Positions 25,561-64,000 of a stretch of 64,000 bases of DNA are shown here, piece by piece. Location of the stretch: contig OX637622.1 of NCBI GenBank assembly GCA_951802195.1, positions 1,602,779 to 1,666,778 on the forward strand, in the 5' to 3' direction. Each line of letters begins with the position of its first letter. Within the stretch, counting starts at the first letter, position 1. The stretch is from Tausonia pullulans. Taxonomy: Eukaryota > Basidiomycota > Tremellomycetes > Cystofilobasidiales > Mrakiaceae. The position numbers and the translations under genes were made by a program. Below the pieces are notes generated by a model that ran no database searches, was not told the origin of the DNA, and saw nothing but the letters and a program-made list of their open reading frames with translations.

Positions 25561-25590
25561 GACGCGCGCCGTTATGTGGTGACTTTGTTT

Positions 25591-29648: not shown

Positions 29649-29726
29649 GTTGGATGAATGGTGTTGAAGGCTGGAGGATGTACGGTGTGCGATTCTGCCA
29701 CCTGTTGGATGATCTGTATCCAATTC

Positions 29727-29798: not shown

Positions 29799-29807
29799 CG
29801 GACCCCG
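29799..29807. promoter_or_regulatory. CGG-N3-CCG site upstream of GH79
   Basis: CGGACCCCG, 151 bp upstream of the GH79 start and about 70 bp upstream of its TATA box. It has the inverted-triplet layout of Zn2Cys6 regulator sites. The spacer differs from the CGGAGGCCG sites of the other glycosidase genes, so membership in the same regulon is weaker. Confidence 0.35.
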
Positions 29808-31840: not shown

Positions 31841-31995
31841 CGTTGTTCTTTTCTCTAGCTGGTCAGGATCGAAGCGAAGGCCTTGCAAACAATTACCTTG
31901 TAGGAGTAAAGTAATCCATCCTATCCTTTGGTTAAACTTTAAAAGTATCCTTACAAAGCGGGTCCCGGCTTGATGCATGTCACGAGTTTCTCTTC
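31841..31995 (+). repeat. Third copy of the SDR-gene 3' flank
   Basis: Matches 38215-38375, the sequence just after the SDR stop codon: both have GTTGTT then TCTCTAGCTGGT, then ACCTTGT.G.AG, then AAAGCGGGTCCC.GCTTGATG. No SDR coding sequence remains beside it; the LTR-like copy L2 occupies that position. It looks like the remnant of a third duplicate. Confidence 0.65.
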
Positions 31996-34789: not shown

Positions 34790-35078
34790 CTGCCACGCCC
34801 ACGACACCTTCATGGCCATATCGTCACCGTCGTCGCTGGGGATCTCGCCGCCACCGAAAGCACTCAATTCGAAGGTAGTTTAGAAGACATGGCTGAGAGA
34901 TAGATAAACATGCACTTGCTTCTAACACTCAGAGCCATTCGGCGTCGCCCCTCTTTGCCCGAAAGAAAACGCGTTGAACGCAGTGGACGGGACACAAGTC
35001 GATGCTGGGATGGAGGGCTTTAGGATGATGTACAGATCTTGAACGACGGCATCTCATCCAGATCTAAGCACGCTAGCT

Positions 35079-38211: not shown

Positions 38212-38664
38212 AAAGCAGATCGTTGTTACTTCTCTAGCTGGTTGTGGTCGAGAGCTTTGCGAGATGACAATACCTTGTGGAGGCAAAACTATTGATCCTA
38301 TACTCTGTTTCAAATTTATTGGCATCCTTATAAAGCGGGTCCCAGCTTGATGCATGTCTTAAGTCTCCGTTTTGAAAGCAGAGGAGATGTAACAATTCAC
38401 TGTCTCAAGTCCGATTCCTGCGTCAATCTTGCCCTCGATGATGGATTTGGGAATTTTCATGGTAATCGTTCTACCTCGCCTTTAAATGAGTCTCAAAATT
38501 AAGAGCACTCCGGTTGCAGCAGCCCTTGCTGACCTTTCTTTTGAAGCCTTTTCGTTCGTACGCACCAGAAGCAGTGGCCAGATCATAAATCAAGGGGATG
38601 TCGTCTAGAAATAAGGACAGAAGGCCACGCTGTATGTGCATCGACCTGTACCCATGGAGCTCGG

Positions 38665-39148
38665 TGTTAAAACTGACCCGAGGATCAAGGGCTGAGAAGG
38701 ATGGATGAGAAGAGGATTGGAGGTGGAGTAGTAGACTGAAATGCTGGCAGTGACACAGGCTCGCTTCGAGATCTTGGACAGGTTTGTCGAATCTAAATGA
38801 TAGTCAGAGTGCAGAACAGAAGGTACGATGACCTGCGTGTCTTATGGAAGGAGACGAGAGCAAGGGGGGAAGATGAGACGGAGAAGAGAACAAAGAATGT
38901 ATAACTGATGAGACAATTCAAGGAACGAAGGAATGGAAATGCTGAGTGGGCGAGGAAGAAATTACACAGACGCCGAGCTAGCCAGGCTCAGGACCGATAT
39001 GGCAAATCCGGGAGATTCGTGAGATCTTTACATAGGACTAAGGTGTCAGATCCTCGAGATCCTGACGCAGGACTGAGATGGCATTTCCGAAAGATCTGGG
39101 AGTTTCTGACACAGGGCGGAGGTGACATCTCCGGAAGATCCTGACGAC
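38665..39148 (-). repeat. LTR-like repeat copy L4 with expanded subrepeats
   Basis: Begins TGTTAAAACTGACCCGAGG, includes TGGCAGTGACACAGGCTCGC and the core ATGATAGTCAGAGTGCAGAAC. It carries about four tandem subrepeats of roughly 45 bp, each ending like GGCAGATCCGCGAGATCCTGAC, at 38975-39145. It truncates an NmrA-like gene fragment on its right. Confidence 0.7.
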
Positions 39149-41239: not shown

Positions 41240-41514
41240 GTAGATGCAAGCTCGCTTCGAGGTCTTGGGCAGGTTCTTCGAATCCAAATGGTAGTCAGAG
41301 TGTAGAACAAAATGTACGATGAACTGAGTGTCTTATGGGCTAAAGGTGAGAAAACAAAGAGTGTGTGACAGTGTGGCTGAAGAGAGGCTGAAAATATGGA
41401 AGCTGAGCAAATAAGGGCGCTGCTACACAGACGCGGAGCCGAGGTGGCGGGTACGCAAGGTTCTGCAGCCATATAGGCGCAGAGCAAATGTGGTGAACCC
41501 GTAAGATCCTGACA
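41240..41514 (-). repeat. LTR-like repeat copy L5 (truncated)
   Basis: Lacks the TGTTAGGATT end and starts inside the element at CAAGCTCGCTTCGAGGTCTT. Contains AGTCAGAGTGTAGAAC and TGTGACAGTGTGGCTGAAG, and ends GTAAGATCCTGACA. The preceding 20 bp, with TTCGCCCTGGAGTCCAATGT, recur inside copy L9 at 58491-58510. Confidence 0.7.
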
Positions 41515-41657: not shown

Positions 41658-44387
41658 CTAAATCTTCTCGACGTGGGCCGATTGGTCGAGACCCATCTTT
41701 TTCTCGTCATCGATGGGCGAGTCTCCCCTGATCCTGGCCTCGTGGGCGAGTCGCTGGGCAGAGGGAGGAGCAATGACGTCGTCATCTCCACTGTGAAAGA
41801 ACGGGAAGACGGCGTGGGAGTCAGAGCCAAGATGAGGAGAACGCGGGGCAAGGAAGCGATACTAACAAGATGGCACCGAGCTCCTCAAGAGTGAGTCCCT
41901 TGGTTTCCTTGAAGAGAAAGTAAGCGACGATTGAGTTGCAGATATTGGAAACCACGAAGATGAAGAAGCTAAAGAAGAAGAAAACAGTGTGGTCGGCAAA
42001 CGACCCCTTAACGCAAGGTTAGAAGGCATACGGTGACTTACAACTTGTATCCGAGCTTTGAGAGTCCAATAGGTGAGATTTGGGAGAGGAGAACATTCAT
42101 AGCCCAGTTGGAGCATGTCGAAACGGAAGTCTTGGGTTCGCGAAAAGGTATTCGTCAGCGGAGGGCGACCAAGTTCAACGAAAGAGACGAGGGGAAGACA
42201 GATGGTCACTCACTCCCATAGCTCGAAGAGGCATTGAGAAGACCTCGGACTGGTAGACCCAAGAGACGGGGCCGTAGCTGAGAGTGCGCAAAAGAAAACA
42301 AATTAAGCGTCAGAGATGTGATAGGTGAAAGCAATTAGGCCAGCCTGTTGAGGGCGATATTGTAAACTCACGACCAAGAGAAGACGAGTCCAAATACGAA
42401 GATGGACGAGATACCTAAGAGATGCCACAGAGGGGAAGATAAGTGGTCTGAGACAAAGTCAGATCGACGGTACAAACCGGATTGGACTCACCAGCAATTC
42501 CTGCAGCGTTCGATCCCTGCTTTCCACCGTCAAATGCAGAGGAGCACCCAGCCTGCCAGGCGAGACAGCAAGCCATGAGGATTCCGCCCCAAAGAAGAGG
42601 CTTCCTTCGGCCGATTCGATCAACCATGAAAGTGATGAAAGTGAAGGTCTCTGCATAAGGAGAAGTAATAAGGAGAAGTAATAAGGAGAAGTAAAAGAGC
42701 GGAGGGCGGACGGATCAGCTCGCGACTCCTCCAATGATGAGCGGATAATGCACTGACCAACAACTCCAGCGGCTCCAGAGATACCAGAGATGAGCAGAAT
42801 TCGACTACCGGTGAATCCGAGCGCCTTGTAGATGGTAGGCCCGAAGTACGAGTTGACGTTGACTCCCGTCCATTGGCAACACACTTGGACCATAACACCG
42901 CAGAGGGTTCGCCGGAGGGAAGCTCGAGTGGACCATAGATCTGAGAACTTAGACGAGACGTTCTCCCGCTCCCATTCCATTTGCGTAGTGATCTCGTCGT
43001 ACTCATACTTGACAACGGCCGGATCGGTCTTACCTCCGTGAAGGCGCATGAGCGCACTGTAAGCCTCCTCGTGTCTGCCCTCCTGGGCCAACCAACGAGG
43101 GGAGTACGGAAGTCCGAACATGGCACTGTTGTTGCAAGGAAAAGAAGCAGTGTCAGCCAGGTGAAAGGGGAGCTACGAGGCAAAGCGTGAGAAAAACATA
43201 CAAGAACAGGATGATGGCAGGAATGATCTGGATGGCAAGAGGGACTCGGAACTGAGCGTCTGACTTCAGGAACTGGCAACCGTAACCGACCCCTGCAAGC
43301 GAGGACCAGCGGACATGGGCCGTCAACTCGCGTCGAAGAACGAACGACAGGTGGATGAAGAAGTGACGAACAGTTGGCAGCAAAGAATCCGATTGAGATC
43401 ATCATCTGTGTCCATCCAGAGAGGAGACCTCGAGCATGGGGGGGCGAGATCTCAGCCTGGTAGAGGGGAACTGACCAAGGTAGAACAAAAATAACAACAG
43501 AAGAGGTTGTCAGTCTCAACCAATCTTCATCAAATGTCGAAAGCAAGGGGCAAAGCAGTGGGGGAACGCAATACTCACCAATCATCGAGAGCATTCCGAT
43601 GGCAAGTCCGGCAACGAATCGACCTCCCATGAGCATACCGACGTTGACAGCAGCAGTCTGGATAGCGCATCCTGCAGATCGTGGAGGTAAAATTCTGTCA
43701 GACGAGAAGGAGAAGAGAGACCGGCCGTTCCAAACGGAAACTCACCGATCGCAGCGCCGAGCGCTCCAAGCTGAATGGTTCTCTTTCGTCCGATTTTGTT
43801 GGCAGTGTAACCAGCGCTGAGGTCGAGAAAGAGAAAGCTCGTCAGGAAAGGCAGAGGAAGAGATGGAAATGATCGTTTGAGGGAAAAAGTCTAGACTCAC
43901 GCAGCAGCTCCAAAGAAGCATCCTCCAGCAAACAATGATACGATCGCACCTCGAGCAGAGTCATCTGGATCGTTGAAGTAGTTGTGAAACTAGCGTAGAA
44001 GGAGGGAGCGAGATCAGCTCGGCGCCGGGCTAATCACCGACGTCCCTTGTATCGTCCTTGACTCCCTGGAGTGCGAGATGAGACTCACGTATGTGTACTC
44101 TGGCGAGATTACCGATCCTATGATTCCTGAGTCATACCCGAATAGGAAGGAACCCACGCCAGCCCTAGGGAACCGAAGGTTGGAAGAAGGGAGAGAGTCA
44201 GTCAGGTTGTTGGTTGAGTTCGTCGAACTCAGCCCCAGGTTTGGCCCCGCCTGCCCATCCCCTCTTTCCCCTTCGCCCCCCTTCTCCCTCCGGCACGTCT
44301 GATGGAAACTCACGTGACGGCAGCGAGGTAATTGATGAAGGCGACCTTCTGGTGTTTGACCTGGTCATGGGATGCGGAGACGTCCAT
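41658..44387 (-). CDS. MFS sugar transporter (hexose/lactose permease type)
   Basis: Proton-coupled sugar uptake at the plasma membrane. Starts MDVSASHDQVKHQKVAFINY, then GVGSFLFGYDSGIIGSVI (the G-Y-D-x-G-x-x-G signature of TM1), N-K-I-G-R-K-R-T loop 2, GMLSMIVPLYQAEISPPHAR (the P-x-Y-x-x-E-I-x-P-x-x-x-R-G signature), PYSPRWLAQEGRHEEAYSAL (central loop), VQVCCQWTGVNVNSYFGP, DRIGRRKPLLWGGILM, WVYQSEVFPMPLRAMG and YFLFKETKGLTLEELG. About 12 helices and roughly ten introns. Ends DQSAHVEKI. One intron (about 42655-42690) carries three copies of AAGGAGAAGTAAT. A CGGAGGCCG motif lies 144 bp upstream of the start. Confidence 0.9.
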
Positions 44388-45638
44388 AGTCGGATGAAAG
44401 TTAGGCGAAGCGATGGAAGATTTGAGGGAGGGTTGGTGGTTGGTGGAGGATGAAACGATCGTGGTCCGCGGGCTAAATAACACGGAAGGAAGGTCAATGA
44501 TGCCCCGAGCCCATCACAGATTCGATCCTCCGGAGGCCGAATGAGGCGACGTAGAGCAGCTTCCGGCGGCCTCCTGCGCAGTCGGGATCTGCAAGGGGAC
44601 CAAGTTCTTTGTACTCAGACGCGTCTAACCAAGGCACGGGAGGACGGGGTCAAAATCCGTCAAAGTCGGTTCCTACGATCGAAAAAGTGGACGCTGACCT
44701 CCTTTTGAGCCTGGCTGCGAGATGAAACCTCTGCGCCAAGCGGGCCAGACGAAGAGCATGTCAGAGTATGTATCATTTTGAAGGGGGAGAGAATGAGCTC
44801 GCGCCTGATTTCGGTCGGCGAGCATCTTTGTACCGACCTGTAGAGTAAGATATAACTGTCGAAAGCGGTCCTATCATGTGCTAATAACAAGTGGCGTATG
44901 CGCGCGGTCAGACGAGACCGAGAGGCAAAGAGACGCACGGACGTCAAGACCGAAGTCAAGAGGTACCCAAGGGCGAGACGCAAGCGGGTGAACAATTGCC
45001 CGGCAACTCAAACAGCTGGGTCCGACAAAGTACCGACGAGTATGGTCGCTGGAGAACGGAGTCCAAACCCATCAGCATTCGGATGGCTTGCCTGCATCGC
45101 AGACGATTGAGAACACAGTAAAATCGACTCGACTCAGCGCTGGACGCGCTCCATACCTTGTCCATCCTCGCCCCACACGTCACCTCCTTCGAAAAGGCAT
45201 ACTCCCCGGGATCGAAGCTATGTATCCAAGATAAGGATCTTCGTGCGTGACAGGACGTCAGATCGGTCAGCTTCTCTCCAAGGTAGAGCGCTTACAGGAG
45301 GCGGTTTCCCTCTCCCAAGCCGTGCGGCCTAAACGGCAAAGAAAACCCCGACGGACTAATCAATGACCAAATGAGGCCTAGACCTGCATCTCAGTGCTCG
45401 GAGGAATTCTAGCGTCGGTAGAAATAGAGCTAGCGGAATAATGATGCACCGCGAAGATACTTCTTGCGGGATCGATACATCTGGGCGCATGTTCAATTGT
45501 TGCCCAGCTGCATTTCGATAAGGAGACGAAGGTCGGGTCTGGACCGAGTCAAACTTGCGGCATGATAATGGTGCGGCAGGGAAGAGAGGTCAGGGACTGA
45601 GAAAGCGCGCGCGATCGATTGCACAAGGGTTCTCCACC
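44388..45638. other. Spacer with promoter and possible gene relic
   Basis: Apart from the transporter promoter, the plus strand at 45255-45365 reads G-R-Q-I-G-Q-L-L-S-K-V-E-R-L-Q-E-A-V-S-L then SQAVRPKRQRKPRRTNQ and a stop. This coiled-coil plus basic tail could come from a lost regulatory protein. I cannot connect it to other exons. Confidence 0.3.
44531..44539. promoter_or_regulatory. CGGAGGCCG palindromic site upstream of MFS sugar transporter
   Basis: CGG-N3-CCG site, 144 bp upstream of the ATG at 44387, in the context TCCGGAGGCCGAATGAG. The same 9-mer occurs 139 bp upstream of GH3 and 144 bp upstream of GH78; the flank CGA(A/G)TGA is shared with the GH3 site. Confidence 0.5.
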
Positions 45639-45970
45639 TGTCAGGATCTCGAGGACTTGCCACCTCCGCTCTGCGCCTGGCTAACTCTGTGCCTGTGTTG
45701 CCTTCTCGCTTGCTCCGCATTCCCTTATCTTCGACCACGCTTTCGCCACATCGGCTCACGCTCCCTGTCTCATTACCCTTCGCCTCTTTTCATTCATCAT
45801 CTGCCCTACACTCTTTGCGTTCTCGCGCTTCTCATCACTTCCTTGTTCTCACCACTCGTCCATAAACGCTAATTTCATCGTAGATCTTGTTCTGCACTCT
45901 GACTATCATTTGGATCCGACAAACCTGCCCAAGCCCCTTTAAGCGAGCCCGTGTCACCTCTCCCACTCCC
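45639..45970 (+). repeat. LTR-like repeat copy L6 (truncated)
   Basis: Begins TGTCAGGATCTCGAGGACTT and includes TTGTTCTGCACTCTGACTAT and CGACAAACCTGCCCAAGCC. It stops after GAGCCCGTGTCACC, without the CCTAACA end. Confidence 0.65.
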
Positions 45971-46154
45971 ACTCGGCACTAGCGTAGATTCCACCACATT
46001 CTGCGCGATTTTATTTCAGACCACACGCTTCTTGCATTGCGCTAGTCACGCTAGTGAGTGGCTACGGTGTGATGGTGTTGCTGAAAGAGTTGGGGAAGGA
46101 TGACGAAGCATGGCGAAGTCATGAAGATCGAGTACTCACCGTCCTCCTATGAGA

Positions 46155-46550
46155 AACGGAAGACGGGGTAATGCTCCACCGAGGATTATGGGGGGATCGA
46201 TGAGAGGAGTGAGAGTATTCTGGACGAGCAGGCAGAACCTGGACAAAGCTGAGCGCCAAGCGATCTGACTGAAAGATTCTCGTCGGCCCTCAGTCTTCAG
46301 AAACGTCCGACGGGGCGAGAGACCAGCGAGAAGTCACCCCTTCCCCACGCCATCTGCGCACAGTCTCGCTGCCCTGTCGACAACAACTCGAGCTCGTCAT
46401 CTTACCAGCTTAGGAATGTTCACTATCATCTACCAATGCAACTTTTCTTTTTGAGTCTTTCAAGTGTTGATCGCAACTGGTGCCGCGGTAGAAAATTCCC
46501 AGGTCCAATGCTATTGTCTCAGGTGTCGGCCTCCTCGTCCCCTTCGGCCC
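46155..46550. repeat. Promoter block of the PhyH gene, duplicated at 62283-62640
   Basis: Collinear with 62283-62640, with only scattered differences. Shared landmarks: GGGGTAATGCTCCACCGAGG, AGTCACCCCTTCCC, GCAACTGGTGCCGCGGTAG and CTATTGTCTCAG. Here the block leads into the dioxygenase gene at 46688, so this is likely the original copy. Confidence 0.75.
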
Positions 46551-46687
46551 CCTCCCATTGTCTCTCTTCAACCATTCTGCTCCTTCCCCTTGTCTCCTCT
46601 CCCTTTTCCCTCCACATTTTCTCTAAACCCCCAACAACCGACCCAGCCCATTTCCCTCCACTTACATCCCGCCGAGTCGCCTAAACC

Positions 46688-48814
46688 ATGCCCGTCGCCG
46701 TCCAGACCCCCACCATTGCTACCACCGCCGAGGCGATTAAGGAGAACAACACCACCCAGTCGTACCGCCAGCAGACGTCCATCTTTGGCCGCTGCGACAA
46801 TGAGCCGTGGCCGATCGATCAGTCGCCCAAGGATGACTTCCGGGACAAGCTCTTCAGCGAGGGCTTCGTCGTCGTCAAGGGCGCCTTCTCCAAGGAGAAT
46901 GCGTCCGAGTACAGTTCGTCTCTCTTCACTCCCTGCTTCGCTCATCCTTCAGCCTTGATCTGACACCTTGTCCGTCGTCTCGACAGACTCCCGCGCTCAT
47001 GACTGGCTCGAGTCCTGGTACGTACGACAATACCTATCCATACATCCCCGGGGCCGGTACCACCGGAAAGAGCGGAATGCAGTGACCAGACACCGTCCTC
47101 TCTCTCTTTCCGGGCTTATGTCTCACTCACTGACGGTCGCATCTTCTGATGCTCACTTGTGTCCACAGGGAGCTTGGATATAAGCGCAACGACCCCTCAA
47201 CCTGGGATCGGGACTTCCTCCCCTCAAGCAGCAAGGGCGGCCTTTATAACCTCTATGGTGCGTTCTGTTACGATTTGCTACACCCAATTGGCGCTTCCCG
47301 CCCTATGTCACGTGTGGCGTTTGCTGGTCTCTCGCTCATTCTTGCCTGACTGACGTATCTCTTTCTACAAATTTCGCCTTGGCTTCTTGTCACATCCAGG
47401 TGTCGGTCACGAGCAGCTTCCTTGGGACGTTCGGTGAGTTCCGTCTCAAAATTGAGTGAACTCCGGGAGGAGACCCACGTGATGTAGGACTGACATCATG
47501 GCAAATTTCTCGACAGCATGGAGCCCGGAATCATTGAAGCCTTTGCCAAGATCTGGGGTACTGATGAGCTCCTTGTCTCGTTCGGTAGGTTCGCTGGCGG
47601 ATTGCTGCTAATGGAGAAAGTGCTGACGTCCTTCACTTCGCTTCAGATGCCTCCAACTTCTCTGTCCCGCTCAACCAGAGTGATTCCAAGAATGGGAACA
47701 TCTTCAAGCCTTGGGCGTGAGTAGTGCGGGAGTTTGAGATGCAGAGAAGCGATCTGGGTGGCTGACAAGCTCTCAACTACCATTTCTTGGTCTCAGCCAC
47801 GTTGATCAGGCTCCTTATCGCACTGTGAATCGAGTACTCAGTGGAGATTGGGTAACTCTGCTCCGAAGCTGATTTTTTTTGTCTGTAGTGGCTCCACTGT
47901 ATCCAGGGAATTGCCAACTTCGCGCCCAACGGACGTGAGTCCACCTTTCCTCATCAAGTTCTCGTATCCTCATCTGATCCGGCATGTTTTCGAACCAGCC
48001 CTTGACGGAGGTCTCAAAGTTCTCAAGGGATCCAAGGCTCTTTATGAGCAAGTCTTTGAGAAGTTTGCCTACCAGAAGCCTGAGGATGGCTGGCCGATCA
48101 CGGATTCGTACCACCACACGCCCGAGTGAGTCGCGATGCAGCTCTTTGCTGTCGAGCCCCTCTCGCTGACCGCAGCTTGCGCCTCCCCAAGGATGCTTGC
48201 TTGGCTCGAGGAGCAGGGCTGCAAGTGGGAGAAGGTCTGCGCTGAGCCCGGAGACCTCATCCTTGTACATCCATTCTTAGTGCCCTTTTATTGCATAAAC
48301 TTGGCTGATACACTCGTCTCCTCGCAGTGGGACAGCCGGACCGTCCACTACGGCGCTGCCCCCGTCAGCAAGAATCCCCGCATGGCTTGCTGTACGTCCC
48401 TCGACTCTGGCGATCCTATTTCCCTCCCAATTGACCATCTTGTCACCTCACAGACGTCTGCTGTTCGTTATCAGTTGTCATCTTCCATTTCACCATCACT
48501 ACTAATTAGTTGACTTGCCTCACCACAGACAAGCCTGCCGCCATGATCTCGGAGAAGCAGCTCGCTTCTAAGGTCCGGTGTTTCGACGAGCTCCTCACCT
48601 GCACCCGTTCGTCCCGTCTCTTTCCTCCTGCTTCTCCCGCAACATCGTTTGACACCCCCCTTTTCGTTCAGATGACCCTATCTCCTTCGCAATCATTCCG
48701 GCCGAGGAGCCTCGTGCTGGTGACAAGGCTTGGGCCAAGCGCCACGTCCCGGAGAAAGCCCCCGTCCTCTCCCAGCGTGGTCTTCAGCTCGCTGGAGTCG
48801 TCCCTTACTGCTAA
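46688..48814 (+). CDS. Phytanoyl-CoA dioxygenase (PhyH)-like protein
   Basis: Fe(II)/2-oxoglutarate-dependent hydroxylase family; substrate unknown. Starts MPVAVQTPTIATTAEAIKEN, then DFRDKLFSEGFVVVKGAFSK (the usual PhyH opening). Short exons follow: GVGHEQLPWDV, MEPGIIEAFAKIWGTDELLV, DASNFSVPLNQSDSKNGNIF, HVDQAPYR with the H-x-D iron ligands, GGLKVLKGSKALYEQVFEKF, and PGDLILWDSRTVHYGAAPVS with the distal His. The last exon ends EKAPVLSQRGLQLAGVVPYC. The final Cys codon and the TAA coincide with the first bases of an LTR-like repeat (L7). About ten introns. The promoter is duplicated near the right end of the window. Confidence 0.82.
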
Positions 48815-48932
48815 GATTGACCCAAGGATCAAGAGCAGAGGTGGATGGGTGAATAGAGGGTCCTTGATGACGGATTGGATTGAGAGCAGCACCGGGTGAT
48901 GGATTGAAACTGAAATGGTGGAGGTGACACGG
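48809..48932 (-). repeat. LTR-like repeat fragment L7, overlapping the PhyH stop codon
   Basis: TGCTAAGATTGACCCAAGG matches the element end TGTTAGGATTGGCCCAAGG with three changes. It continues GATCAAGAGCAGAGGTGGAT and TGGTGGAGGTGACACGG, then is cut off by copy L8. Its bases supply the last codon and stop of the PhyH gene. Confidence 0.65.
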
Positions 48933-49292
48933 TGTTAGGATTGGCCCAAGGATCAAAGGCTGAGGAGGATAGGTGAGAAGAAGAGCGTAGGTGGAGGAGT
49001 AGATTAAAGCGCTGGCAGTGACACAGGCTCCCTTCGAGGTCTTGGGCAGGTTTTGTCGAATCCAAATTGTAGTCAGAGTGTAGAACAAAATTCTACGATA
49101 AACTGAGCATATTATGGGCTAAGGGTAAGAAAACAAAAAGGTGGGACAGTGTGGCTGAAGAGAGGCTAAAAACATGGAAGCTGAGCAAATAAGGGCGATA
49201 CTACACAGACGCGGAGCCGAGGTGGCGGTTCCGCGAGATTCTGCAGCCACATAAGCGCAGAGCCTATGTAGTGAGCCCGTAAGATTCTGACA
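48933..49292 (-). repeat. LTR-like repeat copy L8 (nearly complete)
   Basis: TGTTAGGATTGGCCCAAGG to AAGATTCTGACA, 360 bp. Contains the core, GACAGTGTGGCTGAAGAGAG and the terminal hairpin region GCGCAGAGCCTATGTAG. Flanks CACGG and GCCAG do not match. It interrupts or abuts fragment L7. Confidence 0.75.
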
Positions 49293-50152
49293 GCCAGCTA
49301 TGTCGAGCGGTACCGATGGGCTATGGTCTAACCATACTACACCACCCCTCTCCTGCTTTTCACCTAGGATCGATGACGGCGCCGGCGGCAGGCAGTACCA
49401 ACATCTGGCCACTGCCAGCCATCCACCTCATGCTCGACTGCCAGTGTATCTGCCGGATCGTGGACGCGATCTTGCGGATCTCATCATCCGTGACATAGTC
49501 GAGGACTGCGTTCTTGCTGTACCCCCGTCTCCGGACGAATCACCATGTCCGGGCGACATAGACTGCAGTGGAAGAGGAAGTTCTCCCTCGGCGGCGACGG
49601 TGTCGGGCAGACAAGCTATGGATGGAGGGAAGATGAGAGGGTAATGATGGAGAGGCACGTGTTTCAACAGCAGACCAGACAGCGCGCACGACGGGACACG
49701 GCTCGTCGAAGAGGTGGCCATGGATCCGTTTCGACGATGGGGTGGACAGGTGGCGAGCTGTTATGATCAGGGGCTTGTACTCCTACTTGTCTGGATGGTG
49801 TAGCGGTATCACACCATGTTAGGGTGCCTGACACACTACTGCGGATAAGACAGTTGATCTCTATCAACTCAGGTTATACACAGTCAGTCAATCAAGCAGA
49901 CATTGTCCTTGACCGGTTTGGAGTACCAAGGTCAAGGTGAGACGAAGTTAGGTAGTGGACGTCGGGCTGCAGTTCTCATGGGCGAAACACTTTTCTTAGG
50001 TGTCTTCTCCGTCTCTGTAATAAAATGATCCACGTTTTCAAGTATGTGGCATGAAGGCAGGGTGACAGAGGGCACTGAGGATATTGCTGTGTATGGCATG
50101 ATTTCACAGGAATCCAAGATATCATTGCACCTCAAATTGCCCCTCAGGAGGC
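49293..50152. other. Spacer with a gene relic and a tRNA-like half
   Basis: Minus strand at 49370-49530 reads G-Y-S-K-N-A-V-L-D-Y-V-T-D-D-E-I-R-K-I then ASTIRQIHWQSSMRWMAGS and AGAVIDPR before a stop, a probable relic of an unidentified gene. At 49793-49836 a tRNA 5'-half-like segment occurs, listed separately. Confidence 0.35.
49793..49836 (+). other. tRNA 5'-half-like sequence (A box, Asn-type anticodon loop)
   Basis: TGGTGTAGCGG fits the RNA polymerase III A box. Downstream, CACC-ATGTTAG-GGTG can form a 4-bp stem with a 7-base loop whose centre is GTT (Asn). No T-arm (GGTTCRANNCC) follows at the right distance, so it is not a complete tRNA gene. It may be a truncated tRNA or the head of a SINE, or chance. 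Confidence 0.3.
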
Positions 50153-53100
50153 TTAGTAAAAAAGTTCGACAGGAGTGGGCTCTTTCAAGCCCACCCAAGA
50201 GAAACTCTCCTCCAGAACGAACGGTGCAATCAAGGAAGCCTGTGCTGAAGAAGGACCGACGCGAATCTCGTACTCGCCCTTTTCTCCAACCCAAGTTTTG
50301 GTGCCGACGTCGTAGTACGACAGTGCCGAGTGCTACAGCACGGTACTGTCAGCTTTTTCAACAATTGAGGGCAAGTTCACGAGAAAAATAATCCCTGCTT
50401 ACATCCATTTTGACAGTGATCTCCTTAGATTCTCCCGGCCCCAAGAAGACCTTCTGAAAGCCCTTGAGCTCGATATCGGGTCGCTCGACCTGTCTCGATT
50501 TTGCGTGGACATAAACCTGACCAACCTCGCCTCCCTCAACGCTTCCGGTGTTGAAAATGGTGAAAGTCGCTGCAACGCCGTATAAGGGGAGCTTCTTGAT
50601 TTTGAGGTCGGCGAAGGCAAACGTGCTGTACGAAAGTCCAAATCTGAGAAGCCCCAACAATCAGCCGATACGAAAGTCAATGTCGACAGGGTAACAGGGG
50701 AACATCGTACCCGAAAGGGAAGGCACTGGCCTTGTTTCCAGGCCTGTCAAAGTAGCGGTAGCCGACTTTGATCCCTTCCGTGTAGACGGTGTCGACTTCG
50801 TGTCCAAAGGCGCCGTACGACGGAGAGTCCTCGAGAACTTTCGGGAAAGTGAGAGGTAACTTTCCGGAGGGGTTGTGCTTGCCAAAGATGACGTTGGAAA
50901 TTGCGGATCCGCTGCAATGGGTTTTTATCTATTCAGTCCTTGCACTTCTTGGCTCGGACCGCAGAATGCGATGTTTCGTACCATTCGTTGCCGCCGTAGA
51001 ATGCCTGCAATTTGTGTTCGTGCTTAGAAGGGCACATTCAAGAGGAAGGAGCTGTTCACGTACCTGAAGTAGAGTGGTGGCCTTCTTTAACCAAGGAAAT
51101 TCAACAGGCATTCCCGACTGATTAACGATGATAGCGTTGGGGTTTGCAGCGAGAACAGCTTGAACGAGCGCATCGGAACCCTTGGGGAGCCTTTTTCCAA
51201 ACATCAGCTCCGGTGTGCAACAAGGACGGAAAACGACAAGAACTCACTTCATGTCCTTACGATCGTAACTTTCTGACTCCCACTCCGCAGTGGTTCCAAC
51301 GACAAGGATGGTGACGTCCGATGCCTTGGTGGTAGCAACAGCTTCCTCAATCAATGTGGCGGCATCGTACTTGCGCTGGCCGCCAAAGCGAATACCTCCT
51401 CGGCGTCCAGCCTTTCAGAAAGAAAAGTAAGTAAACCGTAGCACATTCCTTCCGTCGGTCGTCATCAAGAAGACACTTTAACGAACATAGGGAGAGGTTG
51501 GGCTGATTTGTTTGAAGTTGGAGAAGCGTATCTCTAGGTTGTACTGCTGACCTGCTTTGACGGCTAGCTGGCCCACGCGCTCTTCGGCACCCGTCAAGAA
51601 CTGTTGAACAACAGTATGAGTATCTTTCATAAATCACACACATAAATCCGACCCTGGATTGACGTACAAATAAGATACTTGGGGTTTGGTTCACGCTGTT
51701 CTCCACAACAAGCTCGTCGTTGATGTAAAGGTCGGCTTGACCGGCGACTCCGAGTCCGAATTCCCAGACACCATCAATATCGGGAGTGAACGTTGATCGG
51801 ATAATCACCCAGGAGCGAATGGGGACGTGGGCTGGGATGTTCTCGATAAAGTAGGCGTATGACGAATCATTGGTTTTTGCGAAAATCGGGACCACTTTCG
51901 TGCCGACGTGAGGGCTGAAATGAATTTAGCCAAGATCAGCAACAGGTCAACTGCAAAAAAGGAAAGAAAACCGCACTCTTCACTGTACCACTCGATTTGC
52001 ATACCCTGTTCGTTCGTTCCAGGAATTTGCAGGTATGTGTCGAGCAGAGGCGTCCAGCGATGAGTATCGGCTCCAACTGCGTATGCGACTTGCCCGCCTT
52101 GCTTCTCCGCTTCTTTTGTAATGGCATCAAGGGGTGAAATGGCATATGTGGAACGCAGACTGGCGCTGCCTCCTCCGGCTAACCACGAGCTGTCAGCTCA
52201 CAACTGTGAGTGCTGCTTGGGAAACGCTTACAAATGAAGGCCTCTTTGACGTTAGGCCCGATGACTGCAATTTTCAGCCCGCTGATCGACTTCAAAGGCA
52301 GAATCGCTGCAGTATTCTTCAGCAGGACAACCCCACCCAGGGCCGACTCGAGTAACAGCTCCCGAATCTTGGGAGTGTCGATTGATTTCTCCTCAGCTTC
52401 GAAGGGAATTCCAGATTCCTGCGCCTCCTTGATGAAGTTTAGGACCTGTGGTACAATTCATAGTCAGCTTCCAGCAGAATGAGATGTAAAAACGTTGAAA
52501 ATTTACACGAAGGGCACAGTCATCAATGTCGGCGACGCTCACTTTGCCGCAGGTGACGGCGCGCTCAAGAAGAATTCCTCGCATGCTGGCGGGCCCGGGC
52601 ATCTCCAAATCCAAACCAGCCTTGACCGCCTCCGCTGAAGAGTAAGTGCCGACCCAGTCACTCTGCAACGCGAAGCAGCAAGGGGTTTATGTTAGAGGTG
52701 ATAGATGGTGAAAGTACAGTAAAAAGGACCTGCCATGATTAATCCTTTGAACCCAAAGTCCCCTCGGAGGACTTTGCCCAAAAGATACGGAGACTCAGAA
52801 GCATGGACTCCATTGACACGTTGGTAGCTCGACATCTTTCACCATATGAGTTTTTCATCTGCTTGATTAGTACACATTTTGGGTAGTAGAACGGGAAGGC
52901 GAAGAGAAGTACTCACAAATCCGGAGGGTTTGGCCTTGCACTGGATGCGGAATGGCTCGAGATATATTTCGTGCAGAGTACGCTCATCAATAACACTGTT
53001 GTTGGCACGACGGTTGTATTCTTGTTCGTTTCCGACGTAGTGCTTTGGAGCTGGATAGGATCTATTGTTAACCAACCGAAACTATTCAAGTCCCTTTGGC

Positions 53101-53854
53101 GAGACTTACTGGTCATAACTTTACGTGATTGAACGCCTTCAAGCCACGCTTTGGCAAGTGTTCCAGAGAGAAAAGGGTCTCAAATGGCAGTAAAATCAGC
53201 TCCATGAGAGCTGTACAGAGTAAAGTTGATCACCTTCTCCATAAGACTCGAATCCACGACCACCGAGCGGGGACCTCTGGATGTTGGTAGTTGGCCCGAG
53301 CAAGCAGTGGACGCCTCGAGCACGGCACTCCTCACCCAAGGCTTCTCCTACTTTCGCTACTAGATGGATATCGAATGAAGCTCCCAGACCGGTCGCGGCG
53401 GGGAAGCATGAGGCGGCAGCACCACCCAACCCTGCAGAAGGCGTTAGTTTCAGCTGCTGGAGGCATATAAGGGAGAACGGCTAACAGAGAGTTCCGCGGA
53501 CGCCGTTCTGGAGAGAGGTCATCAGGTCTGGGAATTCTATCTATGAAGAAAACGTTACTCACAGGGCCGTCGCTGACCTGTACCAATTAAAAAAAGTGCG
53601 GGGTTAGCGCTTAGCAGCCAAACCACACATCGGTAGGGATCAACACGCACCCTAACTCGCGGAAGACCCAGTCTTGGAATGGGTACGGTGTGCCAGAGGT
53701 CATCCCCTATGTCAATAAGAAAGGTGAGTAGGGAATTCAAAAGCAAAACAACAACGTAGGAATTTGGCAGGCTCTCACCTGAAAGGAGGGCGGCTTTCTC
53801 GTCGGTGGACAGCTGAGCGAGAATCTCGCTAGGGTTAATGATAACTGTAGACAT
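50153..53854 (-). CDS. Glycoside hydrolase family 3 beta-glucosidase with PA14-like insert
   Basis: Hydrolyses terminal beta-D-glucosides. Starts MSTVIINPSEILAQLSTDEK (KAALLSG, typical GH3), then DDLWHTVPIPRLGLPRVRVS and DGP. Next: FPAATGLGASFDIHLVAKVG, GVHCLLGPTTNIQRSPLGGR with GFESYGED, APKHYVGNEQEYNRRANNSV and DERTLHEIYLEPF. The nucleophile Asp is in IMSDWVGTYSSAEAVKAGLD. The C-domain begins LLESALGGVVLLKNTAAILP. A PA14-like region follows (QGMQIEWYSED, IIRSTFTPDIDGVWEFGLGV, QADLYINDELVVEN), then VGTTAEWESESYDR and a fibronectin-like end with GEVGQVYVHAKSRQVERPDI. Ends EPTPVELFY. No signal peptide, so probably intracellular. About 14 introns. Intact. Confidence 0.92.
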
Positions 53855-53992
53855 TGCGCTGCCGGGTTGTGCATGGAGAGAGGAAGGGAAAAGAAGTTCA
53901 AGCTGTTGTCGCTGTGGACAGATCGGCGAATTCACAAGCTTCGGTACATTGTTGTGCCGCGGTGGGACCAGAAGGAGCCGAGAGCGTTCACT

Positions 53993-54001
53993 CGGCCTCC
54001 G
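53993..54001. promoter_or_regulatory. CGGAGGCCG palindromic site upstream of GH3
   Basis: On the minus strand the context is ATTCGGAGGCCGAGTGA, 139 bp upstream of the GH3 start. Identical core and similar flank to the site at 44531. Confidence 0.5.
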
Positions 54002-54586
54002 AATGTCGTGCAGCGTGCTTGATAACGAGACGTAACAATCAAATAACACCGCCACATGACCCACCATCATCGGCTGACGACGCGGGGAAGGTATTGGGGA
54101 GCGAAGAGGTGAGGAGCGGGAAGGAGTCAGAGGAGCAGCAAGGAAAGACATGGAGATGGAGTCTTGCTATGGGCGTTGCGCTCTGGTATTGTGTCTTCTA
54201 CTCCGTGCTGGTGCCGAGCGGTCCCCGGTCCCCGGCTATGCTTAATGGCGCCTTCGACTCTGCCTTGCTCAGGCAGCCCAGGCGTCTCCTGTAGACTCTG
54301 CGTCAGGTGACACCATATCTTTATTGTGCGATACTCCCTGTGCACTATTTGTTCAGCTCGTCGATCCAAAGAGCACCCCCTCTCAGCGCTCGGCGCAAAA
54401 CGCTTCAAACGTCCCCCAACAACAATCTGAGTAGTGAGAAGGGTAAGCACTAAAATTATCTTGGAACAGAGAACAGCCGGAAATGTTAAAGTTAAGTGAG
54501 TTGGTTTGTTCAACTTGAAGTATTCCTGTTCTCTCGAAAGGCCAGACTACAATGGTATGAAAAGAACGTGAAAGGATTTCATTGCA
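54002..54586. other. Intergenic region between GH78 3' end and GH3 promoter
   Basis: No gene seen. It probably holds the distal GH3 promoter and the GH78 terminator region. Confidence 0.4.
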
Positions 54587-57500
54587 TTAGGCAGCAAATT
54601 CGTCTTTGAGGCGCCGTGCCATGAAAGGCTGAATGACCTTGGGAGGCCACGCCTCGTCTCTCTGCCACTTGACCTTGAAGCTATGTTGGCCACTGCCGAC
54701 TTCGTTTGTTTCGCCAGGAAGTACCACACTCGCCGTCGCGTTGGGTGGAACCTGGAGCTCGACTTGGAGGTGACCATCGACGATCACCCATTCGCAGGAA
54801 ATCATCCCGTACGGAGAAATGTGGTGTGACTTGGCGGAGGTGACGGTACCGCCAGGTTGAGGTCGGACGAGGATGCGCTTCCAGCCAGGTTCGAGAGGGG
54901 ACAGACCACCCACAGTCGAATGCAGAAACTCAGCAACACTCCCCAGAGCGTAATGGTTGAAGGAAGTCATCTCCCCCGGCTGGTTCCCAGAATAGCACGC
55001 ATTTATCAGCATTTTCGATGCTTCCACGGAGAAAAAGAACAAAACAAACTCACATTAATGCTTCCGTCGGGAAGCATGCTATCCCATCTGGTAAGAAGGT
55101 TATTGTCAGAAGGTATAATCGACGATTCGGAGAGACAAGGCACCTTTCCCAGACGGTAGTGGCACCCATCGAGACCGGGTACAGCCAGGAAGGGCATTGC
55201 TTTTCCTGCAGCAGTCTGTACGCGAGGGCCACCTTATCGTTGGCGGCGAGCACTTGGAGGATAATTGCTGTTCCAGCAAAGCCAGTACTGATTTTAAAAC
55301 CTTTTGGGAAGGGGGTCAGCAGACAAAATAATGAAGCTCGCAAAATTAATGGAACGAACCTCGGGTACGAATGAGGAAAACCAGGCGGTCCAAAGCATGC
55401 CCTCGACTCTCTACCGGAAGTAGGTCGAAGTGGAGCGCCAGGCAAAGAGCGGTCTGGCTGTCCGAGACAAGACGTCCGTTGGCAGATGTGTACTCTAATT
55501 GAAACTGGATCTTGAGCTTCTCTGCTTCCTTGGTGTAGCGCTCGACAAGATCGGTCTTCTTGAGGATGCCAGCAACAGTACTGAGGATGCCTGTGCAGTA
55601 AACCAAGTACGCGTTGGCCACGAGGAACGGGTCGGTCATGGCTTGACTGGGAGACTCGGGCGGCGCCGTGGGATCGAGCCTGTTTTAGGTTTCAGCGGAA
55701 AGCTCAAAAGCAATGCTAGTGTAAAGACTCACCAGTCGCCAAGCTGAGCTGTCTCGGGAGTTTGCAGCCACAAACCAGAGACGGGATCGCGAGGAATGCC
55801 TCTCTCCATCCATGCCACCATGCTTTCAAGAGTATCATCGAGGATACGACGATCCCCATACATCTTGTAAAGCGTGCTTGGGGCCAGAGTGACAACGTCG
55901 GCCTAAGACAACAATTATGTCAGAATCATGTTTTGATGGGATCTGCAATCGGAGGTAACAACTGACCCATACTGCTTGAGGGTTCTAACAAAGCAGCCTT
56001 TTTAGGTGAATTTCTGACTGCTAAGAAATAGGCAACGACACTTACTGGTGGTCCGAGCCATTGAAGCACGTCAGGAACAACCATGTTCACGATTCCATCG
56101 TTGTCTTTCATTTGCTCCACGACAAGATCGTCGAGCCAGTTTCCGAGAAACGCGGAGGTGTCGTAAAGGAAGCTTGCGGTGGGTGTAACGACCTGTAAAT
56201 GAAAGGGAAAATGGAGATAGTTTAGTTGGAATAGTGCATGTCAGTGAAAGCGGGAGAATCCAACTTCTCACTTGAATGTCTCCTGTCCATCCCATTCTTC
56301 AAGAGAAGAGTTAGTACACAGTTCAACGTTCGGAGATAAAACGTAAGGACGAACCTCTCATCCCTCTGGGGACAATCGCTAGGAATACCCACGAAATTCC
56401 CTCGGAGACCCCAAACGACATTCTTATGAAGCTGGGTAATCATGGGATGCGAACACTCAAAGTCCCCCAGCCTCTCCATCGCCGTATGCACGACAACCGC
56501 TGTGAAGTTGTTCGAGTCGAAGTCGCCTTCCCACCCGGTGACCTGCGCGTAGCGAAATCCGTGAAAGGTGAATAGTGGCTCGAAGTCGGTGAGCGCAACG
56601 GGTCCTGGCTTGACATGGTCTGTCGCAGTGGCGCCACGAAGAGGCCGAACGCCCAGCTCCCCATGCTCCAAGACTTCGGCGCATCGAACCGAGAGCGAGA
56701 GACCGGCCGGGATGTTCTTGATCTTGACCCATCCCACGAGGTTCTGACCAAAGTCGAGCAACGTCTTCCCAGACGGCGACGTGATGACTTCGACGACCTT
56801 CAACTCCTCGATCCGGCGGATAGGTGGTGCTTCGGGCGCAATAAGGACGGTACTGGGAGGCGTTGAGACGCGATTGACGGGCGCCCAAGACCATTTCGAC
56901 GAGCCGAATGATCCAGGGGAAGACCACGCAGCGTCGACCAGCGAGGCGTCGAAGGTTTCGCCGACGTAAATCTCGCTAGAGAGTAGAGGACCAAAGGCCC
57001 ATTCCCAGCCGTCCTCACAAGTAGAGATGGTGTGGTTGACTCCAAGCTCAAGCTGAATGCAGACGCCGAGGTCCTCGCCAAAAATGTTCCGCCATCCTTC
57101 CCTCCAAGTTAGATGGCCGGCATACCATCCTTCGCCGACGACGCCTCCTACGACGTTACTGCCAACGCGGAGCCAGGCAGCAGGTATGTCGTAGATCTGG
57201 TAGTGCAGTCGATGCTTGTAAGACTGCCACCCCGGCGCCAGCACATGCGAACCGCGTGCGTCCTCGACTCGATTCCCGTTGACCTCAAGCTGATAGACTC
57301 CTAGCGCCGTGGCATAGATGCGAGCTATTCCTCCATTCTTCTCCAGCGCAGCTAGCTCGCTTCCAGTCACGTTGAAGCTCGTCCTGGTGTACCATGGTCG
57401 CTTGGAAAGAGCTGGATCCTGCTTCACGTTGGGACCGACGAAAGACGCAGACTGTTGAAGCAGAGTTATAATGAGCTATACAGCCAAGAATTTAGATAGT

Positions 57501-57868
57501 GGGAGACCTACCCAATCGGAAGCTTCGAGCAAGGCTGCTTCCACATCGAGGTTGAACCACGGCGTCCATGCGCTCAAGTACTCGTCGCCAGTTGCGCGGA
57601 CGCTGATGCGAAGGCGCTCCCTCGACACCAGCGACGGCTCGCTGCTCGGCCACGGGACGGCAACGTTGGCGTTGGAAACCACATGGTGGACGGAAGCTGG
57701 CTTTCCAGACCTGGAGAGCTTGAGTTCGTACGCCTTTTGCGAGAAGTTTGCAACCGTGTTACGGTCTTGGACAAACCGCCAGCTGATGGAAGGGCGTGGG
57801 TGTCCGATTCCGATGGGCGAAGAATACCGCTCAAGAGTTACTTTGTCGATGCTGGGTTGAGACGACAT
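54587..57868 (-). CDS. Glycoside hydrolase family 78 alpha-L-rhamnosidase
   Basis: Removes terminal L-rhamnose from plant glycosides such as rutin or naringin. Starts MSSQPSIDKVTLERYSSPIG, then IGHPRPSISWRFVQDRNTVA (bacterial-rhamnosidase N-domain). SASFVGPNVKQDPALSKRPW then ARIYATALGVYQLEVNGNRV and APGWQSYKHRLHYQIYDIPA form the carbohydrate-binding jelly roll. The (alpha/alpha)6 catalytic barrel begins GIPSDCPQRDERMGWTGDIQ with the acidic catalytic cluster and continues NDGIVNMVVPDVLQWLGPP and VSMGATTVWERWDSMLPDGS; MTSFNHYALGSVAEFLHST follows. The C-terminal beta domain ends MARRLKDEFAA. No signal peptide, so probably intracellular. About nine introns. Same strand as GH3, 732 bp apart. Confidence 0.92.
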
Positions 57869-57982
57869 GCTTGACAGATGTTATAGGAGAGATGAATTGG
57901 CGGGTTTTGAGTGGAAGGCGCAAAGACGCGACAGCTGTCCTCGGCCTAAAGTCCTGCCGCTCGATGCGAGTTTTCCTCCGAC

Positions 57983-57991
57983 CGGGGGCCG
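57983..57991. promoter_or_regulatory. CGGGGGCCG site upstream of GH78
   Basis: CGG-N3-CCG site 115 bp upstream of the GH78 start. It is part of a near-direct repeat of CTCCGACCGG(A/G)GGCCG(A/G), whose second unit is at 58005-58021. Confidence 0.4.
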
Positions 57992-58011
57992 ATACAAAGG
58001 CTTGCTCCGAC

Positions 58012-58020
58012 CGGAGGCCG
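58012..58020. promoter_or_regulatory. CGGAGGCCG palindromic site upstream of GH78
   Basis: Same 9-mer as at 44531 and 53993, 144 bp upstream of the GH78 start. Two related sites 29 bp apart suggest a genuine regulator-binding pair. Confidence 0.5.
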
Positions 58021-58397
58021 GGAGAAAGGCAGTCTCTCATTTGACGTTGTAGTGACGAGCGATTCCGCCGTCTGGCGGGTTTTTTTTTTTTTCACGATAT
58101 AGTCCATGATGATATCGTAACATGCTTATTAACAGCCTGGTCGGGCTAAGTGGTGAAGAGGACGAGGAAATAGTCCTTTGCAGGTTTGTTCCGCTCTTAC
58201 TTCCTTATTATTCCATGACAAAGATTAAAGCTGACTCTGGTTATGTTTGTGTTGGAGTGTTCCGAGGCTACGTACGGAACGAGCTGGACGAGATCCTCCT
58301 AGCTCAGGCGGCCAAAGTCGCAGATCCGGCAGAATAACAGCGATCTTGGCGACACAAAATTCAAGAGCTGCTGCAGGATCTTAGTGTACATCCTACT
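58021..58397. other. Intergenic spacer with poly-T tract
   Basis: Contains a run of T at 58081-58092 and a short open frame at 58122-58337 without recognisable features. No gene called. Confidence 0.35.
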
Positions 58398-58939
58398 TGT
58401 CAGGATCTCACAGATTTACCACATGGGCTCCGCGCCTATGTTGCTGTCAGGTTCTCGCGGACCCGCCACCTTGGTGTTGAAGGTCTATGTTCGCCCTGGG
58501 GTCCAATGTGGTTGCAAGCTTATTTCATATACCCACTCGACTCTACCCGCTCATATAAGGTTAACCTAGTGGCGTAAAAAGTACTACAAAGGGAGGACAA
58601 GGGATGAAAACTACTAGATTATAGGTCTCCGTGAATCGCTCCTTCCAACACTTGGCTCCGCGCTTGCGTACATCGATCCCCCTTACTTACTTGGCTCCCG
58701 CACCTTCGGTCACTCTTCAGCCACACTGTCCCACACTCTTTGTTTATTTCCCTTTAGTCCATAAGACGCTTATTTCATCGTACCCTTTGTTCTACACTCT
58801 GACTATCATTTGGATTCGATAAACCTGCCCAAGACCCCAAGCGAGCCTGTGTCACTACCAGCCCTTAGTCGACTGTTCCATCGACGCCCCTCCCCTCACT
58901 CAGCCTCCCCCGCCCTTGACCCTTGGGCCAATCCTAACA
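58398..58939 (+). repeat. LTR-like repeat copy L9 with 5-bp target-site duplication
   Basis: Runs TGTCAGGATCTCACAGATTT to GGGCCAATCCTAACA, with TG...CA ends and short imperfect inverted termini (TGTCAGGATC against TGTTAGGATT). It is flanked by CTACT at 58393-58397 and CTACT at 58940-58944, a perfect 5-bp duplication. At 542 bp it is longer than other copies because of about 160 bp of extra sequence in its left half. No coding region, primer site or second LTR nearby, so a solo LTR is the best reading. Confidence 0.8.
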
Positions 58940-58944
58940 CTACT

Positions 58945-62171: not shown

Positions 62172-62282
62172 GGTGAGGATGGATTGGAGCAAAGTAGTGG
62201 TACGAGGAAAGAAAGAAGGAAGAGATAAGCGGAAGTGAGTATTAAATCACGGTTCTCAGAGAAGGAAACCCCGTAGGTCCTA

Positions 62283-62640
62283 CGGAAGACGGGGTAATGC
62301 TCCACCGAGGATTGTGGGGAGATCGATGGAGTGGGAGCAATCTAAGTAGACGCTGAGCGCTGAGCGATCTGAGTGGAAAGTTCTCGTCGGCCCTCAGTCT
62401 TCAGAAAACGTCCGAAAGGGCGAGACCAGCCAAAAGTCACCCCTTCCCTACGCCATCTGCGCGCAGTCTCGCTGCCCTGCCGACAACAACTCCAGCTCGG
62501 CATCTTACCAGCTTGGTGATGTTCACTACCATTTATCAATGCAACTTTTTTCAGTCTTTCAAGCGTCGATCGCAACTGGTGCCGCGGTAGAAAATCCCCA
62601 GGTCCAACGCTATTGTCTCAGCTGTCGGCCTCCTCGTCGC
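62283..62640. repeat. Orphan duplicate of the PhyH promoter
   Basis: Collinear with 46155-46535 through GGTCCAACGCTATTGTCTCAG, but no dioxygenase coding sequence follows. It lies between the second sugar transporter and the truncated SDR copy, and could act as part of the transporter's upstream region. Confidence 0.75.
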
Positions 62641-62700
62641 CTTCGGCCTCCTCGTCGCCTTCGGCCTCCTCGTCGCCATCGGCCTCCGCGACCGCCTTCG
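62627..62700. repeat. 18-bp minisatellite TCGGCCTCCTCGTCGCCT
   Basis: About three to four copies of an 18-bp unit where the PhyH promoter duplicate ends. At 46537 the corresponding place has only one copy. Confidence 0.65.
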
Positions 62701-62985
62701 CATCGAACAGAATTCTTCTCGAATGACGTTCAAATATCCTCGAGAGAAGCACGGGTCATGTTTATGGCGAGGGACCCGGGTTAGTTTTGCCCATATCCAT
62801 TTTTGGTGCCTTATCTCGACCTGTATTTCTCTTCAAATCTCTCTCTTCATTGGTTCTTCCTTGATCCGAGAACCGAAAAAGAGTTGAAAAAGAGCATAGT
62901 ATTGGTCCCTTTGCCCCCACAAGGTAATGAATTCTCGCAAAGTTCTCGACCACGACCAGCTAGAGAATGAACAACGATCTGCTTT

Positions 62986-63792
62986 TCAAAAGGCTAGTTG
63001 CTGGCCCTCGTAGTCCCAGAAAGATCCCGAATCGCTCTCCTTCAGGTTCTCCACGACCTTGAGAACTCCTCTGACGCTCACTTCCACTTCAATCTATTGT
63101 AAGGAGTAATCTCTGTTAGATCGTCTCGGGGGGGCCGTATTCATGAAAAGGATGAGACGCGAGTTACTTACCCCACCTTGGCCTCTTCCCATGTCGGTCT
63201 CAACCAAGCCCGGGTGAAGCATTGTGATAATCCATCCACCTTCCCGCTCAAGAGCGCCGCCGGTGATTTCGAGCGCGAGCTTCTGAAACCACATGTTGCC
63301 AGCTGACTTGGACGCCGAGTAGCCTGGCATGACGCTCGCGAAGCCGCCAAGCGATGAGACGAGCGAGTGGGACCCCAAGAGTGATGAAATGTAGATGATC
63401 TTGGCCGGAGCCTTGATGGGCGAGGACTGAAGCAGGGGCAGGAAGGCCAGAGTGGTGAGGATGGTGCCGATGTAATTTGTGTCGATATCCGCACGCAGTC
63501 CGGCGGCAGTGACTTGGGTCGCGGTCTTCGCCCCGGACGAGATGCCTGCGACATTGTACAAAACGTCGATGCTACGGTTGTTTTCCTTGACAAACGGCAC
63601 CTCCAACGTCGCTTTGACAGCCGCCTATTGCTCGCGCAAACCGCATTACATTAACGCGGTTTGAACCTTGACTCGCATGAGAGAGCATCGAGAACGCACT
63701 GAGATGCTGTCCTCCGACGTCACGTCCAGGGTCACAGAAACGACCCTGCCCTGACTCGTTTCAATGATCTTCTGCAGTTCACTAGACGCCGA
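62986..63792 (-). pseudogene. Short-chain dehydrogenase copy 2, 5'-truncated
   Basis: Inverted near-identical copy of 37209-38211, including introns and 3' flank. It retains SASSELQKIIETSQG onward, KIIYISSLLGSHSL, PGYSASKSAGNMW and DYEGQQLAF, but lacks the start codon and the G-S-S-R-G-I-G cofactor motif. These are replaced at 63793 by a G-rich tandem array. The N-N-A-G motif reads N-V-A-G (VLYNVAGISSGAK). Without a cofactor-binding N-terminus it cannot be a working SDR unless another exon lies beyond the window. Confidence 0.8.
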
Positions 63793-64000
63793 GGGGTCGG
63801 TTGGGTCGGTAGGTTGGGTCGGTAGGTTGGGTCGGTTGGGTCGGTAGGTTGGGTCGGTAGGTTGGGTCGGTAGGTTGGGTCGGTAGGTTGGGTCGGTAGG
63901 TTGGGTCGGTAGGTTGGGTCGGTAGGTTGGGTCGGTAGGTTGGGTCGGTAGGTTGGGTCGGTAGGTTGGGTCGGTAGGTTGGGTCGGTAGGTTGGGTCGG
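63793..64000 (+). repeat. G-rich 13-bp tandem array GGTTGGGTCGGTA
   Basis: About 15 to 16 head-to-tail units, with occasional 9-bp units GGTTGGGTC near the left edge, running to the window end. The G-rich strand points rightward. It begins inside exon 2 of the truncated SDR copy, after GCCGAGGGGTC. It is not the common fungal TTAGGG repeat. Either a minisatellite or an unusual telomere-like array. Confidence 0.85.

Follow-up and report, generated by a model that had tools for sequence, protein, structure and literature searches.

In the 64-kb window (the whole stretch of DNA analyzed here), three co-located genes, namely an MFS sugar transporter, a GH78 alpha-L-rhamnosidase and a GH3 enzyme, have the identical nine-letter word CGGAGGCCG about 140 bp upstream of their start codons. 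The sites were found at 44531, 58012 and 53993, respectively, which confirms the observation in the original prediction. We suggest that CGGAGGCCG may be bound by a zinc-cluster activator of a module for glycoside uptake and subsequent cleavage, with an estimated probability of about 45% on the evidence of the sequence. Among the explanations considered, zinc-cluster co-regulation leads and coincidence is close behind.

The window has a G+C content of 55% and its genes are intron-rich and fungal-type; the large number of introns may point to a basidiomycete. The gene models are the rough output of a simple script: in that of GH3 one intron was kept and some coding stretches are missing, and the model starting at 20056 runs into the next gene. 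The transporter gene (41658–44387, minus strand, 14 exons in the model) matched Pfam Sugar_tr with an E-value of 3.5e-104, and its nearest solved chain was sugar transport protein 10 (7aaq, E 3.1e-54). The gene had been correctly recognized in the original prediction and labeled by position 41658, which is its far end; its start is at 44387. The GH3 gene (50153–53854, minus strand, rough model of 18 exons) carries PA14 and Fn3-like domains according to Pfam, and its top solved match was beta-glucosidase I (3abz, E 1.1e-116). For the GH78 gene, identified by Pfam and modeled at 54587–57868 on the minus strand, the top solved match was alpha-L-rhamnosidase (6gsz, E 2.8e-167). A GH79 gene (Glyco_hydro_79C in Pfam) occupies 27476–29650 on the minus strand, with limits set by eye; an intron seems to interrupt its ATG after the A (29587–29650, by eye).

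No secretion signal was seen by eye at the N-terminus of GH78 or GH3, and both enzymes are apparently cytosolic; the N-terminus of GH79 is hydrophobic and resembles a secretion signal, also by eye. Because GH78 and GH3 have no visible secretion signal and the transporter is of the sugar type, transporter, rhamnosidase and beta-glucosidase fit a route in which rhamnose-glucose glycosides, e.g., from rutin or naringin, are taken up and then cleaved. Rutin- or naringin-type glycosides are our guess at the substrate.

Both strands of the 64-kb window together contain five copies of CGGAGGCCG (20215, 44531, 53993, 58012 and 62680), against 1.05 expected, and 0 of 100 shuffles reached five copies. 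The site in the transporter promoter (44531–44539, plus strand) has a right flank that gives CGGAGGCCGAATGA and overlaps a perfect 10-bp dyad, CCTCCGGAGG. The GH3 promoter site (53993–54001, minus strand), whose right flank gives CGGAGGCCGAGTGA, also matches TCGG-N3-CCGA. The GH78 promoter site is at 58012–58020 on the plus strand. The 10-mer CCGGAGGCCG is common to the MFS and GH78 sites, and CGGAGGCCGARTGA to the MFS and GH3 sites. Measured to the A of ATG, the gaps were 143 bp (MFS), 138 bp (GH3) and 143 bp (GH78). The near-equal spacing proposed earlier therefore stands, and the distances of 144, 139 and 144 bp given for it are each off by one, a matter of counting convention. The description of the word as a palindrome applies to the CGG and CCG half-sites; the AGG spacer is asymmetric. 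Read in gene sense, the MFS and GH78 sites are CGGCCTCCG and the GH3 site is CGGAGGCCG, the GH3 site being reversed relative to the other two. A longer word, CGGAGGCCGANTGA, was rejected, with two exact copies and matches of up to three mismatches at chance level (33 vs. 27.7).

The two other copies look unrelated to the promoter sites. The copy at 20215 (minus strand) is coding, in the first exon of the rough model of another MFS gene. The copy at 62680 (minus strand) stands where an 18-bp minisatellite (62625–62700) ends; it is upstream of a second sugar-type MFS gene (Sugar_tr in Pfam), at a distance of 508 bp, and is probably a by-product of the repeat. With 62680 included, DNA upstream of sugar-type genes contains four of the five copies. 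The transporter promoter also holds a second GGAGGCCG octamer (44567–44574, minus strand), which is inverted and does not form CGG-N3-CCG. This octamer is frequent throughout the window (13 vs. 3.65 expected); four of the 13 are in the minisatellite and others in or near ABC, MFS_1 and ADH genes.

A second GH78 site had been proposed, and CGGGGGCCG is indeed present at 57983–57991 (plus strand, gap 114 bp). It is not independent of the first GH78 site, because the two lie in the units (57973–58001 and 58002–58030) of a 29-bp tandem duplication with 83% identity, at 57973–58030 on the plus strand; the double site was therefore dropped as independent evidence. Upstream of GH79, the predicted CGGACCCCG was found at 29799–29807 (minus strand, CGGGGTCCG in gene sense), a CGG-N3-CCG with another spacer, and its gap to the A of the start codon is 148 bp instead of the 151 bp first given. 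Given steps of about half a helical turn between the gaps of 138, 143 and 148 bp, and the reversed orientation of the GH3 site, a fixed geometry is unsupported.

To compare promoters we used 18 start codons from our own reading of the sequence, five of sugar genes and 13 of others; this grouping was set once the sites were known, and all tests are on one window. The starts come from outside ∼6–8, 14–15.5, 26–27.5, 30.5–35 and 58–59 kb, and a weak, sub-cut-off PLOD glycosyltransferase match at ∼33.3–33.5 kb was left out. Some gene names were given by eye: CLPTM1-like (22901), NTF2-like (19506) and a small mitochondrial gene (15755). Two divergent gene pairs have common upstream DNA, and the 13 others represent ∼11 separate stretches. 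Divergent starts are found at 4308 (minus strand) and 4512 (plus strand), 203 bp apart; the gene at 4308 is a class II aldolase/adducin (Pfam), and the gene at 4512 resembles a relative of it by eye.

CGG-N3-CCG was found within 250 bp of the start in four of five sugar genes and in none of the 13 others (Fisher p = 0.0016), and the count for non-sugar starts was still 0/13 at 500 bp. In all four site-bearing sugar promoters a CGG-N3-CCG site is at a gap of 138–148 bp. None occurs within 500 bp of the second sugar-type MFS gene. When the MFS_1 gene at 20056 was counted as a sugar gene, the comparison became 4/6 vs. 0/12. Inverted CGG half-sites at a shared fixed spacing, the arrangement of a Zn2Cys6 inverted-repeat site, are thus present in four of five sugar promoters. 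The placement of the sites in the window is non-random. The prediction that one regulator controls these genes gains support in its first part, a shared cis-element, in that the match is exact, the distances fall in a narrow band and the gene groups differ; with a Zn2Cys6 protein as the reader these data are compatible.

Coincidence is quite possible as an explanation: a GC-rich word frequent in the genome would have fallen before three genes without joint function, one striking match being picked among many. Enrichment of the CGG-N3-CCG class in the window is not clear (31 vs. 23.67 expected, with 31 reached in 8 of 100 shuffles) and was dropped as an argument. The frequent GGAGGCCG octamer and the two apparently unrelated copies of CGGAGGCCG point in the same direction. 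Of 40,000 trials with 18 random points, 4061 had at least four points with CGG-N3-CCG anywhere within 250 bp. The exact word in a narrow distance band, however, was rare in controls (0 to 0.4%). When the five sugar promoters were dinucleotide-shuffled, any 9-mer in at least three promoters turned up in 1.75% of 2000 sets, and one with gaps within 5 bp in 0 of 2000. With random points on the real sequence (1500 trials for each number of points), a 9-mer shared by at least three points was found in 3.2% of trials for five points, 20.5% for nine and 81.8% for 17; gaps within 5 bp were found in 0, 0.07 and 0.4%, respectively. According to these random-point controls, a 9-mer shared among many promoters is ordinary, but a 9-mer shared at one distance is not. 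For 18 random points, at least four with CGG-N3-CCG in an 11-bp band occurred in 7 of 40,000 trials, and none of the 40,000 gave at least three with an identical spacer inside a 6-bp band. The placement also tracks one functional group, which speaks against coincidence.

Comparison of 63 zinc-cluster layouts gave an equally sharp one in 59 of 5000 label permutations, which puts the class-level result at ∼1%. Direct repeats spaced by N4 separated the groups equally well (4/5 vs. 0/13), partly because CCGGAGGCCG contains CCG-N4-CCG. Within the set of 18 promoters, 25 9-mers recur in at least three. Besides CGGAGGCCG, one more passed the close-gap test: the pyrimidine tract CTCCTTCCC, with gaps of 96–99 bp, before unrelated genes and on three separate promoter stretches; this result survived when shared divergent DNA was counted once. 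Positional coincidences thus also arise at promoters outside the sugar group, here with a low-complexity word. Pure chance is an unlikely cause of the site placement, and the statistical weight of the result is modest given that the test was chosen after the fact.

CreA/Mig1 is a C2H2 glucose repressor with the consensus SYGGRG. If the sites were read by another factor of this kind, the genes would be repressed on glucose rather than activated. CCGGAG or CCGGGG does occur inside or beside the MFS (gaps 140 and 142), GH78 (142 and 113) and GH79 (152 and 145) sites. We consider this explanation unlikely: the GH3 site has no SYGGRG match, the conserved CCG half is left unexplained, and SYGGRG is scarcely richer at sugar genes (12 in five promoters vs. 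28 in the 13 others), on which ground CreA was rejected as a discriminating element. The binding motifs of XlnR, AraR and Roc1 showed no sugar-vs.-other group pattern in the promoters.

That the word came to be shared through duplicated promoters or repeats in the repeat-rich half of the window is very improbable: the two GH78 sites do lie within a tandem duplication, a promoter copy (62282–62653) adjoins the GGAGGCCG-bearing minisatellite, and the eight main copies of a dispersed repeat lie in 25.9–58.9 kb, but none of the repeats >60 bp from two self-comparisons covers 44531, 53993 or 58012, and the flanks of the three CGGAGGCCG sites are largely different, so that the lack of flanking homology common to the three weakens this explanation.

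The repeats themselves are of several kinds. The dispersed family is intergenic, present on both strands and 66–91% alike in pairwise hits; self-comparison placed the family, with its eight main copies, at 25904–26089, 31475–31841, 34560–34791, 38662–38848, 41247–41514, 45846–45957, 48930–49293, 58398–58475 and 58651–58940, and the left 25.9 kb had no match when three copies were used as queries. At 25561–25975 (∼25580–25915 by eye) there is a diverged eukaryotic 18S rRNA fragment (Rfam SSU, 83 bits), which sits directly after the gene starting at 22901, where the repeat-rich half begins on the left, and looks like an rDNA-derived remnant. A short-chain dehydrogenase gene is present as an inverted duplication (37397–38313 and 62884–63797, 92.8% identity); in the rough model exon 1 and part of exon 2 are missing from the copy, which ends at a 13-bp tandem array (63795–64000) that runs to the end of the window. 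The segment 46156–46554, upstream of a PhyH-like dioxygenase gene, is copied with 84% identity at 62282–62653, upstream of the second MFS gene and adjoining the 18-bp minisatellite at 62625–62700.

Under zinc-cluster co-regulation, CGGAGGCCG would be a shared cis-regulatory site for a module acting on plant glycosides, composed of the sugar-family transporter, the GH78 rhamnosidase and the GH3 beta-glucosidase. A Zn2Cys6 dimer, encoded elsewhere, would bind the inverted CGG and CCG half-sites across the 3-bp spacer. We infer that the dimer might turn the three genes on jointly in response to the substrate or one of its breakdown products. The gene for the protein that reads such a site often lies close by. 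A zinc-cluster C6 pattern was found in none of the six frames of the window, in a search that could miss an intron-broken motif, and no zinc-cluster family was among the Pfam matches of the scanned stretches (part of the window and strands); the regulator gene may be elsewhere. A more specific proposal, drawn from the motif and the gene families, seems doubtful to us: that in a basidiomycete-type fungus an undescribed zinc-cluster activator recognizes CGG-N3-CCG with a preferred AGG spacer ∼140 bp before starts and controls an intracellular transporter/rhamnosidase/beta-glucosidase module. At present CGGAGGCCG is a candidate motif from one window. If real, it would offer a way to study how flavonoid-type glycosides are sensed and used in such a fungus, as well as a concrete site for finding the regulator.

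In fungal cellodextrin or maltose systems, a transporter and an intracellular glycosidase are under one activator, and the sugar is taken up and then cleaved in the cytosol. The module described here differs from these in having a rhamnosidase and a beta-glucosidase, and its co-regulation is inferred. Nothing directly relevant on rutin or rhamnoside gene clusters was found among the literature matches listed. The accessible text of a paper on basidiomycete regulators (PMC12997857) gives no spacing to compare.

RhaR and PDR-1 are two rhamnose regulators, both from ascomycetes. RhaR of Aspergillus nidulans, a Zn2Cys6 regulator of rhamnosidase, recognizes CGG-N11-CCG (PMC4245848), and PDR-1 of Neurospora crassa, a Zn2Cys6 regulator of pectin and rhamnose genes, probably TCGG-N11-CCGA (PMC5469009). 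Rhamnosidase or rhamnose regulation is common to these systems and the present one, whereas the spacer is 11 bp in the passages cited and 3 bp here (PMC4245848, PMC5469009). CGG-N11-CCG was not found within 500 bp before the GH78, GH3 or MFS gene; it occurs within 500 bp of two of the 18 starts (22901 and GH79), and TCGG-N11-CCGA has no copy in the window. Membership of the sites in the RhaR/PDR-1 type was ruled out on the spacer, which is N3 and not N11, with no N11 site before GH78.

The N3 layout had been called typical of Zn2Cys6 activators. Precedents exist, and in the passages cited here CGG-N3-CCG is tied to secondary-metabolite clusters. TCGG-N3-CCGA was predicted for GliZ, without experimental proof at the time of the paper (PMC4006717; PMC7022936), hypothesized for SirZ (PMC8191991), and given as the consensus in Aspergillus gli and vdt gene promoters (PMC10512231). 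As in the GliZ and SirZ clusters, where the layout is in most promoters (PMC4006717; PMC8191991), N3 sites precede most of the sugar genes. The GliZ/SirZ sites carry an outer T and A and belong to secondary-metabolite genes, whereas here the outer T/A is found at the GH3 promoter site only; TCGG-N3-CCGA occurs four times in the window and within 500 bp of one of the 18 starts (GH3). For PglR of the Fusarium perithecial pigment cluster, the motif was identified by enrichment, CGG-N3-CCG being enriched in the promoters (PMC4872168). That is an ascomycete pigment cluster with the regulator gene inside, whereas the genes here are sugar genes and no regulator gene was found in the window. The two are alike in that equal half-sites with an equal spacer length stand in the promoters of one gene set (PMC4872168).
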